Below are positions 25,147 through 31,749 of a DNA stretch of 47,803 bases, in pieces. Each line of letters begins with the position of its first letter. Positions within the stretch are counted from its first letter, which is position 1. Under the pieces are notes generated by a model. The model was not told the DNA's origin. It ran no database searches and saw only the letters and a program-made list of their open reading frames with translations. This stretch comes from Candidatus Acidiflorens stordalenmirensis. GTDB taxonomy: Bacteria > Acidobacteriota > Terriglobia > Terriglobales > Acidobacteriaceae. A program made the translations under genes and the position numbers. The stretch lies in assembly GCA_003139995.1 (NCBI GenBank), contig PLIC01000303.1, positions 1 to 47,803 of the forward strand, read 5' to 3'.

Positions 25147-26760
25147 TTGTCCCAATTTTCGGCGGCTAGACTGACGGCCAGACTTTCGAAGTCCACACTC
25201 TCGATAACGACCGTTGTTGCCTTCCTGCTGTGGCTGTCCCTTACCGCCTTCGGCCTCTTTGCTCCAACTGCGGCCGCAGTGCAAAATCCGCACGCCGTGC
25301 AGTTGATGCAGGTAAAAGCCGACGCCAGCAAAAAGCCCGCGCCCCCGGCGCCCGTCGTCGTCATTGCGCCGCCCGGCTCCGATCTTTACGTCGCCCAGCG
25401 CGGAGACAGCATCCCGTCCGTCGCTCGCAAATATCTGCGGCGGACGAAATACCTCACCTCATCGGAACTGGCCGAAGCCATCCGCGAAGCCAACCATAAC
25501 CGGCAGGGGGTCTTCCTCAAATCCGGAGAACAGATCGTCATCCCCGGAATTCTCGAAGCGCCCATTGTAGAGAAATCGGTGCCAGTGGCAAGAGATTTCG
25601 AAGTCCGAGCCATTTACCTGACCGGCGTGATGGCGGGCAGCGATCACGGACAGCGCATCATCCGCCACTGGCGCGAAGTCGGCGGCAACGCGGTCGTCTT
25701 CGATATTAAGGATAGCGACGGCATCGTCAACATCGCCTTCGACCAGCCGCTCGCCACCGGACAGCGCCACTATATTTCCGACCTGCCCAAGTTCATTCGC
25801 TTCCTGCATTCCGAAAACATGCACGCCATCGCCCGCATCGCCATCTTCCGCGATGAGCATCTGGTCACCAGCCACCCGGAGTTGGCCGTAAAGTCCCGCA
25901 GCACCGGCCAGCCCTGGCGCGAAAACGGCAAGCTCGTCTGGACCGACCCTTCGAACCCCAAAGTGCAGGACTACGATATCGCCCTCGCCAAGTTGGTAGC
26001 CCAGGCCGGAGTCGATGAAGTGCAGTTCGATTACGTCCGCTTTCCCGCCGAAGGCGACCAGAAAGACACCGCGTTCGACTTCCAGACCGATCATCCGAAA
26101 TGGCAACGCTCGGAGGTGATCGCCGACTTCCTCCAGCGCGCCTATGCCCAGATCCATCCCACCGGCGCCCTGTTCTCGCTCGACGTCTTCGGAGTCATGG
26201 CGTGGCAGCGTCCCGTCGATCTTTCGCACACCGGGCAGGACATCGTAGCCATGGCCAAGCACTGCGACGTGATCTCGCCCATGATCTATCCTTCGCACTT
26301 CTTCGGCATGGACGGCATCGCGCACCCCGGCGACGCGCCCGAGCATTTCATCGGCGAGTCCATGGACCGCTTCAAGCTCATCACCAATTCCGGAGCCAGC
26401 GGCGTGGTGATTCGCCCGTGGCTGCAAGCCTTTGCCTGGCGCACCAAGACTTACTCGCCCCAGTATGTTGAAGTTCAAGTCGAGGTAGCGAAACAAAAAG
26501 GCGGCATCGGTTTTCTTTTCTGGAACGCCAATAACGATTACTCGAAGCCCTACACCGCCATGCCGGAAATGCGTGCCGCCAAGAACAAAGACCGCTACTT
26601 TCGCGGAGACGAAGTAGGCAACAAGCCCGAACCGTCCACAGCCACGCCGGTTGCCTCAATCGCCGCGCCCGCAACCGCGCCCAACACGAATGTAGACACG
26701 GGGCTTGCCCGGTCTCCCAGCGACACCGCCCACCGCGCCCAGAAAATCTGGCGCTACTGA
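25147..26760 (+). CDS. LysM and putative glycoside-hydrolase (DUF4015) protein
   Basis: A 537-residue protein starting at a TTG with GGAG about 7 bases upstream. A membrane anchor or signal (LSITTVVAFLLWLSLTAFGLFAP) is followed by a LysM-like domain (about 78-140: YVAQRGDSIPSVARKYL...SGEQIVIPG), expected to bind peptidoglycan or similar glycans. The rest is the DUF4015 putative glycoside-hydrolase (GHL) TIM-barrel: RAIYLTGVMAGS, NAVVFDIKDSDG, VDEVQFDYVRFP, FSLDVFGVMAW, DVISPMIYPSHF, FLFWNANNDY. The acidic residues in FDIKD, QFDYVRFP and SLDVFG are candidate catalytic or binding residues. It is likely an envelope polysaccharide enzyme; the substrate is not known. Confidence 0.88.
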   Translation: MSQFSAARLTARLSKSTLSITTVVAFLLWLSLTAFGLFAPTAAAVQNPHAVQLMQVKADASKKPAPPAPVVVIAPPGSDLYVAQRGDSIPSVARKYLRRTKYLTSSELAEAIREANHNRQGVFLKSGEQIVIPGILEAPIVEKSVPVARDFEVRAIYLTGVMAGSDHGQRIIRHWREVGGNAVVFDIKDSDGIVNIAFDQPLATGQRHYISDLPKFIRFLHSENMHAIARIAIFRDEHLVTSHPELAVKSRSTGQPWRENGKLVWTDPSNPKVQDYDIALAKLVAQAGVDEVQFDYVRFPAEGDQKDTAFDFQTDHPKWQRSEVIADFLQRAYAQIHPTGALFSLDVFGVMAWQRPVDLSHTGQDIVAMAKHCDVISPMIYPSHFFGMDGIAHPGDAPEHFIGESMDRFKLITNSGASGVVIRPWLQAFAWRTKTYSPQYVEVQVEVAKQKGGIGFLFWNANNDYSKPYTAMPEMRAAKNKDRYFRGDEVGNKPEPSTATPVASIAAPATAPNTNVDTGLARSPSDTAHRAQKIWRY

Positions 26761-29006: not shown

Positions 29007-29044
29007 ATGACAACTCATGTATTCGTCTCAGCATGACAACTCAT
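29007..29044. repeat. Direct repeat ATGACAACTCAT, second copy supplies a start codon
   Basis: Exact 12-base copies lie at 29007-29018 and 29033-29044. The second provides the ATG and first three codons of the next gene. The first follows a dispersed-repeat-like string (GCGAGGCGAGCTGCTCCGCC). Confidence 0.7.
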
Positions 29045-29830
29045 AAGAATTCCTTTCTCCTCACGAAGTGGTATCTGGACTGCGTCGCAGAGAGTGGCGA
29101 TGCAGCGATCCTGTATGTGGCCGATCTGCGCTGGGACGCACTCACAGTCCATTATGGAAGCTTGCTCACGGTCCTCGGCGGCATGATTGGTTTTACCTCT
29201 TCCCTGCGCGGTGGTGCGGCCCCCGAGGTTCAGGACAGGAAGATAGAAGTCAGCCTGCCTCACCTTGACGTCGAAGGCACGTGGCACGCGTTGAGATCGC
29301 CCATCCAAAGAACAGTCTTTGAAAGTGAGCACGGTTCGGTCGAGTGGCGATGTTTGCAGCCGATGTCTCAGGCCGAGCTGCTTTTTCGAGGAACAGCCAG
29401 GCTTACAGGACGCGGGTACGCGGAATGCTTGACCCTTTCCATTCTTCCGTGGAAATTGCCTATGAACGAGCTGCACTGGGGGCGATTTCTTTCCGAACAA
29501 GATGCTCTTGTCTGGATTGATTGGCGGGGTCCGCACCGACAACGCGTCGTCTTCCACAACGGCGGGGAATGTCAGGTCAAGTCCGTCACAGAGTCGGAAA
29601 TCGTGTTTGCCAATTCAGACACGCGGCTGGAACTCGATCGTGGACTGGTTCTGCGTCAGGGTCGGCTGGGGGATACCGTATTTACCGGCATCTCTCGCCT
29701 TGCCCGGTTGCTTCCCCGAAGCATGCTGTCAGTGAATGAATGCAAGTGGCGAAGCCGAGGAGTGATGCACTCCTCGGGCGGCGAGAGTTCGGGTTATGCG
29801 ATCCACGAGGTCGTGAAGTGGACAGACTGA
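29033..29830 (+). CDS. Protein of unknown function upstream of the lipid-enzyme fusion
   Basis: A 265-residue soluble-looking protein without a signal peptide or membrane segment. It is rich in beta-type sequence with regular Trp residues (LHWGRFLSEQDALVWIDWRG, SVEWRCLQP). The G/Y-rich and WGR pattern is faintly like the lipocalin-like AttH/CrtC fold, whose members bind lipids or isoprenoids, but this is a guess by eye. The start lies in a 12-base direct repeat and has no clear ribosome-binding site. The gene overlaps the next one by 13 bases, so the two are probably translated together, and a shared lipid-related role is plausible. Confidence 0.7.
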   Translation: MTTHKNSFLLTKWYLDCVAESGDAAILYVADLRWDALTVHYGSLLTVLGGMIGFTSSLRGGAAPEVQDRKIEVSLPHLDVEGTWHALRSPIQRTVFESEHGSVEWRCLQPMSQAELLFRGTARLTGRGYAECLTLSILPWKLPMNELHWGRFLSEQDALVWIDWRGPHRQRVVFHNGGECQVKSVTESEIVFANSDTRLELDRGLVLRQGRLGDTVFTGISRLARLLPRSMLSVNECKWRSRGVMHSSGGESSGYAIHEVVKWTD

Positions 29831-31749
29831 GAAATCTTGCCGTGGCGAAGCTGCTCTACGGTTTCCTTTTCGTGGGCCTCCTGCCACTTCTGCTAGTGAC
29901 CTGGGCGGCCAAAACGACGGATGTTGTCGCGTTGCCGATAGTGCACTCTTTGTCTTGGGGACTGGTTGCGGCCGGAGTTGGGCTGTTGTTGATGGCTATG
30001 GGAACAACGGCGCTGTGGCGGCTTGGCGGCGGCCTGCCCATGAATGCATTTCCGCCTCCGCGTTACGTTTCCGGCGGAATCTACCACGTGTTATCCCATC
30101 CGATCTATGTAGGGTTTGCGTTCGTGTGCGTGGGCGTCGCGATCGCCGTGGGGTCGGCCAGCGGATTATGGCTTGTGTCGACGACCGTGATCCTCGCCAG
30201 TGCGGCGCTGGTTCTCGGATATGAACTCCCCGACATGCGAGTACGTTTCGGCGCTGCATTTCCAGAACAACGTCTGCTGCCGCCGGATGATGGATCTCAG
30301 CCGACCCCTCTGGAACGGGCTCGTTGCTACCTGACGGTGCTGTTGCCTTGGTTCGTTCTTTATGAGGCTTTGATCGCGCTTGGAGTTCCGGTGGACGCGA
30401 AGGTAGCCTATCTCCCTTTCGAATCGCGTCTGCGCGTGTGGCCATGGACTGAAACTCTTTATGGCAGCGTCTACGTGATAGTGGTGATGGCGCCGCTGAT
30501 GGCACGGACGCGGCACGCTCTTCGCTGGTTCTCAAGTCGAGCCTTGCTCTCGATGGTGATCGTCTTCCCCCTATACCTTACAGTGCCGCTGATTGCTCCG
30601 CCGCGCCCGTTCGTCTCGAACGGAGCATTGGGCACTCTGTTGAATTTCGAGCGGTCCCACGACAGTGCCGCAGCGGCGTTCCCGTCCTACCACGTCATAT
30701 GGGCCTTCCTGGCTGCCGAGATCATGGGCCGAGAGCTTTGGCAGAGGCGGGTGTGGCAGCTCTGGGCAGTTTTGGTTGGGGTGAGCTGCGTGACCACGGG
30801 AATGCACGCCCTGATGGATGTTCTCGCCGGTTTTCTCGTCGTCTGGGCAGTCGTGCGGATGGAGCGGGTCTGGTCGTTCCTACGCAATTCATCGGAGGCC
30901 ATTGCGAACTCCTGGCGGGAGTGGCGAATAGGACCAGTGCGGGTCATAAACCACGGAGCCTGGGCAGCTGCCGGAGTATTCCTCGGAATCTGGATTCTTG
31001 ACACGCTGCTGGGACCAGGCAAGAGCGTGATCCCACTCGCCATTTTCCTGGGGGGAACAATCGGAGCCGCACTCTGGGCACAATTCATTGAGGGTTCGCC
31101 AGCTCTGTTGCGGCCATTAGGATTCTATGGAGGGGTGATCGGTACTTCGATTGGTGGAGTGGCCGCCGCGTGGTTGTCTGGCGCCAGTGTCTGGCAGGTG
31201 CTGAGCGCGTTGGTTGTCGCTGGTCCGTGGATTCAAGGGATTGGCCGGCTGCGCTGCTTGGTTCAGGGATGCTGCCATGGGCGGCCAGCGAGCGAGCACT
31301 TGGGCATCCGCTATGAGCATCCTCGTTCTCGGGTTTGCCAGATAGCGTCGCTAGGGGGCATTCCGATTCACCCCACGCCGTTGTACTCGCTGCTCTGGAA
31401 CGTCGCCATCGCTCTAGTCGTGACGAGGCTGTATTTCCTGCACACGACGGCAGCGATGGTTGGCGGGGTCTACCTGATCCTCTCCGGTATTGGAAGATTT
31501 GTGGAAGAGGCTTACCGGGGAGAGCCTCAAACGCCGATATTTTGGGGTCTGCGGCTGTACCAGTGGATCGCCATTGTCACCGTGTTTCTGGGTGCGGTGA
31601 TCACAACTTTGGTGAGAACGCCCATCACCTCCGAACCGGTCATCCACCTTTTTTCGGTCTTTGTTGCATTGGCCTGCGGAATTGCCGCGTGGTTCGTCAG
31701 TGGTGTCGACTTTCCCGAGTCGAGTCGCAGATTTGCGCGGCTGAGTTAA
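29818..31749 (+). CDS. Polytopic fusion: methyltransferase-like, PAP2-like and Lgt-like domains
   Basis: A 643-residue integral membrane protein from a GTG with GAGG about 7 bases upstream. Three parts can be told apart. (1) Residues about 10-150: isoprenylcysteine/phospholipid methyltransferase-like, with GGIYHVLSHPIYVGF (86-100), the HPxYxG motif. (2) About 170-345: a PAP2/inositol-phosphotransferase-like region with RP (263-264), FPSYH (288-292) and GMHALMD (328-334) in the order of the C1-C3 phosphatase motifs. (3) About 375-600: Lgt-like, with GRLRCLVQGCCHGRP (476-490), GIPIHPTPLYSLL (514-526) and GIGRFVEEAYRG (557-568), the counterparts of the Lgt signature, HPxQLYE and the distal Arg motif. 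Each family acts on lipids at the membrane. What the fusion makes is unknown. It overlaps the upstream gene by 13 bases. Confidence 0.8.
   Translation: MDRLRNLAVAKLLYGFLFVGLLPLLLVTWAAKTTDVVALPIVHSLSWGLVAAGVGLLLMAMGTTALWRLGGGLPMNAFPPPRYVSGGIYHVLSHPIYVGFAFVCVGVAIAVGSASGLWLVSTTVILASAALVLGYELPDMRVRFGAAFPEQRLLPPDDGSQPTPLERARCYLTVLLPWFVLYEALIALGVPVDAKVAYLPFESRLRVWPWTETLYGSVYVIVVMAPLMARTRHALRWFSSRALLSMVIVFPLYLTVPLIAPPRPFVSNGALGTLLNFERSHDSAAAAFPSYHVIWAFLAAEIMGRELWQRRVWQLWAVLVGVSCVTTGMHALMDVLAGFLVVWAVVRMERVWSFLRNSSEAIANSWREWRIGPVRVINHGAWAAAGVFLGIWILDTLLGPGKSVIPLAIFLGGTIGAALWAQFIEGSPALLRPLGFYGGVIGTSIGGVAAAWLSGASVWQVLSALVVAGPWIQGIGRLRCLVQGCCHGRPASEHLGIRYEHPRSRVCQIASLGGIPIHPTPLYSLLWNVAIALVVTRLYFLHTTAAMVGGVYLILSGIGRFVEEAYRGEPQTPIFWGLRLYQWIAIVTVFLGAVITTLVRTPITSEPVIHLFSVFVALACGIAAWFVSGVDFPESSRRFARLS

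Follow-up and report, generated by a model that had tools for sequence, protein, structure and literature searches.

A two-gene bacterial module joining methyltransferase, PAP2 and predicted inverted LGT domains in one membrane protein

Computational analysis of a stretch of 47,803 nucleotides from Candidatus Acidiflorens stordalenmirensis (contig PLIC01000303.1; the whole stretch is called the window below) shows that a single gene codes for a membrane protein in which a methyltransferase, a PAP2 and an LGT domain follow one another with conserved active sites, that this fusion gene forms a pair with an upstream gene, here termed the partner, and that the same genome encodes a separate Lgt. 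Since three lipid-handling enzymes are joined, one of them seemingly upside down in the membrane, and are accompanied by a soluble, enzyme-like protein, the pair may make an undescribed lipid. The reading that we tentatively prefer, at somewhat under an even chance, is that of a two-gene module for the transfer of diacylglyceryl in the inner leaflet from phosphatidylglycerol to an acceptor other than a lipoprotein, which would be combined with methylation by means of S-adenosylmethionine (SAM), headgroup chemistry at the PAP2 domain and tailoring by the partner.

Reading frame, domains and active sites of the fusion

The features of the pair are as follows, with counts referring to the 76 rows of the fusion alignment described below.

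29033..29830 (+): partner gene, 265 amino acids, soluble CrtC/AttH-fold protein (hydratase/lyase/cyclase-like)
29818..31749 (+): fusion gene, 643 amino acids, GTG start; overlaps the partner gene, whose last 13 bases it shares
29818..30291 (+): PEMT/ICMT-type methyltransferase domain, residues 1-158; PEMT 30.0 bits, 75 of 76 members
30097..30108 (+): methyltransferase motif HPIY, residues 94-97; H in 70, P in 76, I in 70 and Y in 75 of 76
30295..30873 (+): PAP2_3 domain, residues 160-352
30682..30693 (+): PAP2 motif 2, PSYH, residues 289-292; P in 76 and H in 74 of 76
30805..30819 (+): PAP2 motif 3, HALMD, residues 330-334; H and D each in 75 of 76
30883..31629 (+): LGT domain, residues 356-604, predicted to be inverted in the membrane
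31243..31281 (+): LGT signature GRLRCLVQGCCHG, residues 476-488; all 76 rows agree at 12 of 13 positions, and L478 is present in 64
31495..31518 (+): RFVEEAYR, residues 560-567, corresponding to R239...R246 in Lgt of E. coli; R560, E564 and R567 in 76 of 76
31630..31746 (+): additional helix at the C-terminus with the conserved tail GVDFP..RRFARL, residues 605-643; D631, P633, R641 and L642 in 76 of 76

The fusion frame (29818-31749) runs from its GTG to a stop codon without internal stops, and the reading frame is already open from an ATG at 29740; the overlap of 13 bases with the partner gene is also listed for 13 of the 64 loci compared. An earlier note on this DNA had placed three lipid-acting membrane families in this single frame, which is borne out by Pfam, as LGT scores 85.9 bits (cut-off 24.9) over residues 369-596, PAP2_3 52.7 bits (cut-off 27) over residues 211-346, with PAP2 at 33.9 bits (27.2), and PEMT (PF04191) 30.0 bits (cut-off 25) over residues 81-145. 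All three thirds exceed their cut-offs, the first one as PEMT and not as ICMT (PF04140; 13.0 bits, under the cut-off of 24), so that of the ICMT/PEMT profiles proposed as a check in that note PEMT matches and ICMT does not.

A scan of genome_contigs yielded 115 relatives, 80 loci of which were kept. The fusion alignment consists of 76 rows, i.e., the window and 75 loci (excluded were L005, L055, L071, L074 (cut) and L085 as well as the duplicates L002, L080, L083, L084 and L086), and at E <= 0.01 its members matched LGT in 76 cases, PEMT in 75, PAP2_3 in 73, PAP2 in 63 and ICMT in 39. Structure prediction, which had been proposed as a check, gave a whole-chain model with a predicted local distance difference test (pLDDT) of 92.8 and a predicted template modelling score (pTM) of 0.92. 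No solved structure matched the sequence profiles of the partner or of the fusion at E <= 10, and Foldseek by itself found no PAP2 match with E <= 0.001 for the fusion model.

With respect to the active sites, the LGT set R477, R560, E564 and R567 is present together in all 76 rows, the PAP2 catalytic set H292, H330 and D334 in 74 (the exceptions being L018 and L022), with R or K at position 263 of the first PAP2 motif in 66, and the methyltransferase set H94, P95, Y97 and E136 in 69. It is quite unlikely that one or more of the domains are catalytically dead and bind or move lipid, the working enzyme being the methyltransferase or the partner only. Variants without a recognisable PAP2 (L151) or LGT domain (L126) and the loss of several canonical Lgt residues would fit such a protein, but the three sites, the PAP2 one counted as His/His/Asp, are all intact in 67 of the 76 rows, and conservation is highest in the LGT third, with a mean top-residue fraction of 0.62 versus 0.55 and 0.53 for the others. 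That a single protein might methylate, dephosphorylate and transfer a diacylglyceryl group, as suggested earlier, is thus supported as far as the conservation of the sites goes, and not beyond it: the activity of each site, the donor and the order of the steps are what we infer from homology.

Like other members of the PAP2 superfamily, the fusion has the PAP2_3 profile and keeps the catalytic His/His/Asp, but in comparison with PAP2_3 enzymes (inositol phosphorylceramide synthase, Aur1) and LpxE its PAP2 domain is flanked by a methyltransferase domain on one side and an LGT domain on the other. By its PEMT profile, the first domain resembles the PEMT/ICMT-type methyltransferases, including LmtA, the lipid A 1-phosphate O-methyltransferase. 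These enzymes presumably carry an EE motif, the second Glu of which is mostly absent in the fusions. A literature search on LmtA found no description of the fusion. Matches of the L126 protein to the isoprenylcysteine O-methyltransferase and LmtA models are weak (43.5 and 26.1 bits versus equivalog cut-offs of 160 and 325), and it reaches 25.9 bits with ICMT (PF04140).

The LGT domain compared with stand-alone Lgt

The genome of the window encodes a separate Lgt (183.1 bits), and a separate Lgt outscoring the fusion was found in 37 of the 38 other carrier genomes searched; in the exception (G410, locus L040) the fusion alone was seen, and the assembly may be incomplete. Identity with the housekeeping Lgt, which the earlier note had already denied, is therefore rejected. 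The NCBIfam equivalog models for lgt remain far under their cut-offs (TIGR00544 49.2 versus 118.9 bits, NF000778 65.2 versus 334 bits). With Lgt (PF01790; E. coli Lgt, PDB 5azb) the domain shares the PF01790 profile, the Lgt fold and R143, R239, E243 and R246 in E. coli Lgt numbering, which is used throughout this comparison. It differs from Lgt in being joined to two other enzymes, in its predicted inversion, in the replacement of Y26, G145, Y235 and E202, in an added eighth helix and conserved basic tail, and in its occurrence alongside another Lgt.

Residues were compared with those of 25 stand-alone Lgts, mostly from Acidobacteriota and including that of the own genome, and the mutational roles of the E. 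coli residues were taken from the relevant parts of PMC4728403 and PMC13251419. All 76 fusions retain R143, R239, E243 and R246 as well as G142 and G154. Y26, G145 and Y235, which are reported there as required in E. coli Lgt, are replaced: the first position holds His in 73 fusions and Tyr in three (Tyr in 25 of 25 stand-alone Lgts), the second Arg in all 76 (Gly in 24 of 25), and the third Asn in 28, Ser in 23, Thr in 14, Ala in six and Val in three (Tyr in 22 of 25). In addition, the E202 position holds Ser in 75 fusions (Glu in 19 of 25 stand-alone Lgts) and the N149 position Gln in all 76. Given that the catalytic and phosphatidylglycerol-activating residues are kept while Y26, G145, Y235 and others are replaced, donor activation looks conserved in the LGT domain and the acceptor side changed.

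The GR...GCC signature pointed out earlier is indeed present but not peculiar to the fusion, as all 25 stand-alone Lgts, that of the own genome included, likewise have Cys in place of N146 and of E151; on the role of E151, the accounts in PMC4728403 and PMC13251419 disagree. Judged by these alignments, the peculiarity of the fusion is GRLRCLVQGCCHG, with Arg replacing an essential Gly of Lgt, plus the other substitutions. Comparable in part is MSMEG_5408 of M. smegmatis, which the pertinent section of PMC13251419 presents as a second Lgt with Y26H and N146C and a presumed low activity; compared by this description only, it differs from the fusion in that neither a joining to other domains nor a partner or an inversion is mentioned in that section.

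Orientation in the membrane

Canonical Lgt is reported to work on the periplasmic side of the membrane (PMC4728403). In the fusion, hydropathy over the alignment and the structure model indicate about 18 helices in total, four in the methyltransferase, six in PAP2 and then eight, and after PAP2 helix 10 (residues 329-346) hydropathy over the same alignment reveals no further hydrophobic segment until residue 383. R263, H292, H330 and D334 of PAP2 lie at the end of helix 7 and at the starts of helices 8 and 10, and the active side of LGT starts at the end of helix 10. By this helix count, and with no hydrophobic segment between residues 346 and 383, the PAP2 and LGT sites would lie on opposite faces of the membrane. 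As PAP2 lipid phosphatases, like canonical Lgt, act on the periplasmic side, one of the two domains must be inverted, and because SAM is cytosolic and the methyltransferase motif lies on the LGT side, the inverted one is predicted to be LGT.

With respect to charge, the PAP2 loops opposite the active site are positive (net +2.1, +2.4 and +3.4, versus -1.4, -0.5 and -1.0 on the active-site side), and Lys plus Arg are higher on the active-site side of LGT in 76 of 76 fusions versus none of 26 stand-alone Lgts (25 opposite, one tie). The LGT core of the fusions is followed by the eighth helix and the basic tail. E. coli Lgt itself is described as obeying the positive-inside rule (PMC4728403). From helix counting and charge we strongly infer that the LGT active site is cytoplasmic, on the same face as the methyltransferase and opposite to PAP2, and hence inverted relative to Lgt, whose periplasmic active site and head domain the LGT domain would, in this prediction, not share. 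Neither this opposite orientation nor the partner gene had been recognised in the earlier note, the overall interpretation of which holds for the three domains and their distinctness from the housekeeping lgt.

The partner gene

Whole or in part, the partner gene lies upstream of the fusion in 78 of the 80 loci. The model of its product has the CrtC/AttH fold, double lipocalin-like and matched over the whole length, with relatives in fold among hydratases, Diels-Alderases and a lyase (25-phosphosteroid lyase, kievitone hydratase, Fsa2, CghA, Phm7 and NE1406). CrtC/AttH proteins are 8-12% identical to the partner, and their solved chains comprise 320-381 residues versus 265. Pfam gave no match on the partner of the window, and over 61 partner members it gave 10 families with one member each, none of them from the CrtC/AttH group. 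In the partner alignment of 61 rows, i.e., the window and 60 loci (excluded were L019, L062, L075 (short), L085 and loci without a called partner frame), D16, Y28, Y129, E131 and E259 are conserved in 61 rows, R151 and E236 in 60, and K238 in 59.

Distribution and authenticity

Nearly all kept relatives are co-linear with the query over its whole length, the exceptions being cut at contig ends or shorter. In a quick tree of the 76 rows (LG+G4 model, Shimodaira-Hasegawa-like approximate likelihood ratio test, SH-aLRT), the carriers belong to ten phylum-level groups, and the window stands beside Candidatus Sulfotelmatobacter; since the tree is a quick one, based on LG+G4 with SH-aLRT only, it suggests but does not prove horizontal transfer of the module. 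Full-length frames recur in independent assemblies, isolates included, so that a fusion made by assembly, for which the earlier note had allowed along with failing profiles, is rejected. Among these are five records not marked as metagenome-assembled genomes, namely Minicystis rosea (complete chromosome), Actibacterium atlanticum, Neisseria wadsworthii, Neisseria sp. 83E34 and Paenimyroides tangerinum.

The fusion is rare, being found at full length in four of 396 Acidobacteriota genomes, with one broken copy in G333; in the family of N. wadsworthii it occurs in five of 83 genomes, the centre genome included. Censuses with the partner profile, which likewise count the centre genome, gave eight of 392 genomes in the phylum of the window (four with the complete pair, one LGT-less variant and three partial), three of 188 in that of Minicystis (two of them partial and without the fusion in the stretches fetched), seven of 247 in that of a Bacteroidota carrier, and one each of 299 Pseudomonadota and 145 Verrucomicrobiota, in both cases the centre itself. 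A tblastn search of viral_contigs found no relative of the fusion (35 pattern matches, none confirmed), and the single plasmid record that matched was an ordinary lgt with 37% of the query covered; with neither a viral nor a plasmid carrier found, cargo of phages or plasmids was rejected. Altogether, the module looks movable and rare.

In G333 (L087, L125), the copy of the pair is split over several frames, which points to a decayed gene or to sequence errors. Partial partner matches with no fusion nearby, i.e., remnants or fragments, occur in three Acidobacteriota genomes (G098, G245 and G374; L136:4836-5564, L137 and L138).

Gene neighbourhood

Within flanks of 4 kb, the largest cluster of neighbours besides the partner is formed by UbiA-family genes, which lie directly upstream of the partner in six of 80 loci, all from one Acidobacteriota clade; every other cluster reaches at most four of 80. 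The neighbour in L025 is confirmed as UbiA (77.6 bits, over 34.2), and the best NCBIfam model for those of L025, L020 and L011 is PRK12884, an unspecified prenyltransferase, followed by PRK12882, a geranylgeranylglycerol-phosphate geranylgeranyltransferase, both far below cut-off. The module might accordingly tailor a prenylated or isoprenoid lipid supplied by a UbiA-type or other source, with the partner hydrating or cyclising it, the methyltransferase methylating it, PAP2 acting on a prenyl (pyro)phosphate and LGT on a prenyl-glycerol, a pathway that would also suit a partner fold which includes enzymes acting on isoprenoid or steroid substrates. However, the remaining 74 loci show no UbiA gene in the cluster analysis, geranylgeranylglyceryl-phosphate synthase (PF01884) exceeds its cut-off in nine of 39 carriers and is absent from the own genome, and the phosphatidylglycerol-activating residues of Lgt are fully kept, so that we consider this pathway unlikely, if still worth bearing in mind. 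An archaeal-type ether lipid made via geranylgeranylglyceryl phosphate is unsupported, PF01884 being found at E <= 0.001 in 11 of the 39 carriers, the nine over cut-off among them.

Several further genes were observed nearby. In the isolate P. tangerinum, a gene for an S-adenosylhomocysteine hydrolase (L078:1788-3104, +) directly precedes the partner at a distance of 51 bases, which would suit the preferred reading but may be chance. A decarboxylase dependent on pyridoxal phosphate (L126:953-2518, -), near diaminopimelate decarboxylase (TIGR01048, 252 bits, below the cut-off of 297.9), lies directly downstream of the LGT-less variant. Three Bacteroidota frames of 609-623 amino acids (L118:1448-3301, -; L119:1284-3155, -; L036:1264-3093, +) carry LGT at the N-terminus, followed by a long C-terminal part that is beta-rich by eye and had no Pfam match in the two of three scanned; in L036, 140 bases separate the frame from the partner gene downstream of it. 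Long LGT-containing frames in the carriers G420 and G402 are not the fusion. In the window itself, a putative glycosyl hydrolase (25147-26760, +; DUF4015, 269.5 bits), which LysM also matches weakly, is encoded a few kb upstream.

Proposed function

In the preferred reading, i.e., diacylglyceryl transfer in the inner leaflet, the methyltransferase and LGT sites would face the cytosol, where the soluble partner would also act, and the PAP2 site the periplasm. The partner would make the acceptor ready or tailor it through a hydration, lyase or cyclase reaction. The LGT domain would take phosphatidylglycerol or a very similar lipid as donor, the Arg pair R477/R560 would activate the glycerol C3-O bond, and the diacylglyceryl moiety would be passed to an acceptor other than a secreted prolipoprotein, resulting in an ether or thioether. 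The methyltransferase domain would methylate the acceptor or the product with SAM, and the PAP2 domain would strip or exchange a phospho-headgroup on the outer face.

A number of observations weigh against this reading. The function that it assigns rests on homology, the orientation is a prediction from helix counting and charge, and no solved relative of the methyltransferase domain was among the matches listed for the whole chain, the domain not having been searched alone. E243 is essential in the assay of PMC4728403 but not in that of PMC13251419, as far as the parts concerned with it go, and the loss of H103 in the fusions is uninformative, because most stand-alone Lgts replace this residue as well. 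In L126 (G203), the partner is accompanied by a methyltransferase-PAP2 protein of 478 residues without LGT, so that LGT seems not always needed; a search with its partner for further variants of this kind found one of 38 genomes of its class, namely that of L126 itself. In L151 (G743), the partner stands beside a methyltransferase-LGT protein, the middle part of which has no PAP2 profile match, and as two of the 76 rows also lack PAP2 catalytic residues, PAP2 activity may likewise be dispensable. Judging from these variants, the partner and the methyltransferase are present in every complete case seen.

Finally, three of 38 genomes (loci L054, L058 and L075, from G416, G418 and G428) have a stand-alone lgt no more than 5 kb away from the fusion; the one in L075 is divergent, with some 0.4 kb between it and the partner gene. 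This could hint at a lipoprotein link and is to be counted among these points. An accessory Lgt serving a subset of lipoproteins, with the other two domains as helpers, would be in line with this proximity, with the Lgt fold and catalytic Arg pair, and with the commonness of second lgt genes, for which PMC13251419 gives about 1,300 two-copy genomes in the part dealing with them. Against it stand the predicted inverted orientation, the loss of Y26, G145 and Y235 together with the low scores of the NCBIfam lgt models, and the fact that no lipoprotein-like gene recurs beside the fusion; its probability appears low.

Implications

No published description of the fusion or of an inverted Lgt was found in a search whose coverage falls short of most subscription journals; PMC12419801, in the parts that treat Lgt and PAP2, mentions no such fusion. 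Returning to diacylglyceryl transfer in the inner leaflet, it is possible, if doubtful, that the LGT domain is in effect an upside-down Lgt, i.e., a cytoplasmic-face, phosphatidylglycerol-dependent transferase for a non-lipoprotein acceptor, which would form a thioether or ether on a cysteine-like or other cytosolic acceptor that is then capped by methylation. This could amount to a bacterial parallel to the processing of prenyl-cysteines, or else yield methylated ether lipids of a new class.

As the fusions match PF01790, they may be miscounted as second Lgts in annotation. If the preferred reading is true, the Lgt fold would work on the opposite side of the membrane and uncoupled from lipoproteins, within one polypeptide that also holds two other lipid enzymes and has an obligate soluble partner, and an undescribed membrane lipid would be present in ten phylum-level groups of bacteria, encoded by a two-gene cassette that would be small enough to express and assay.

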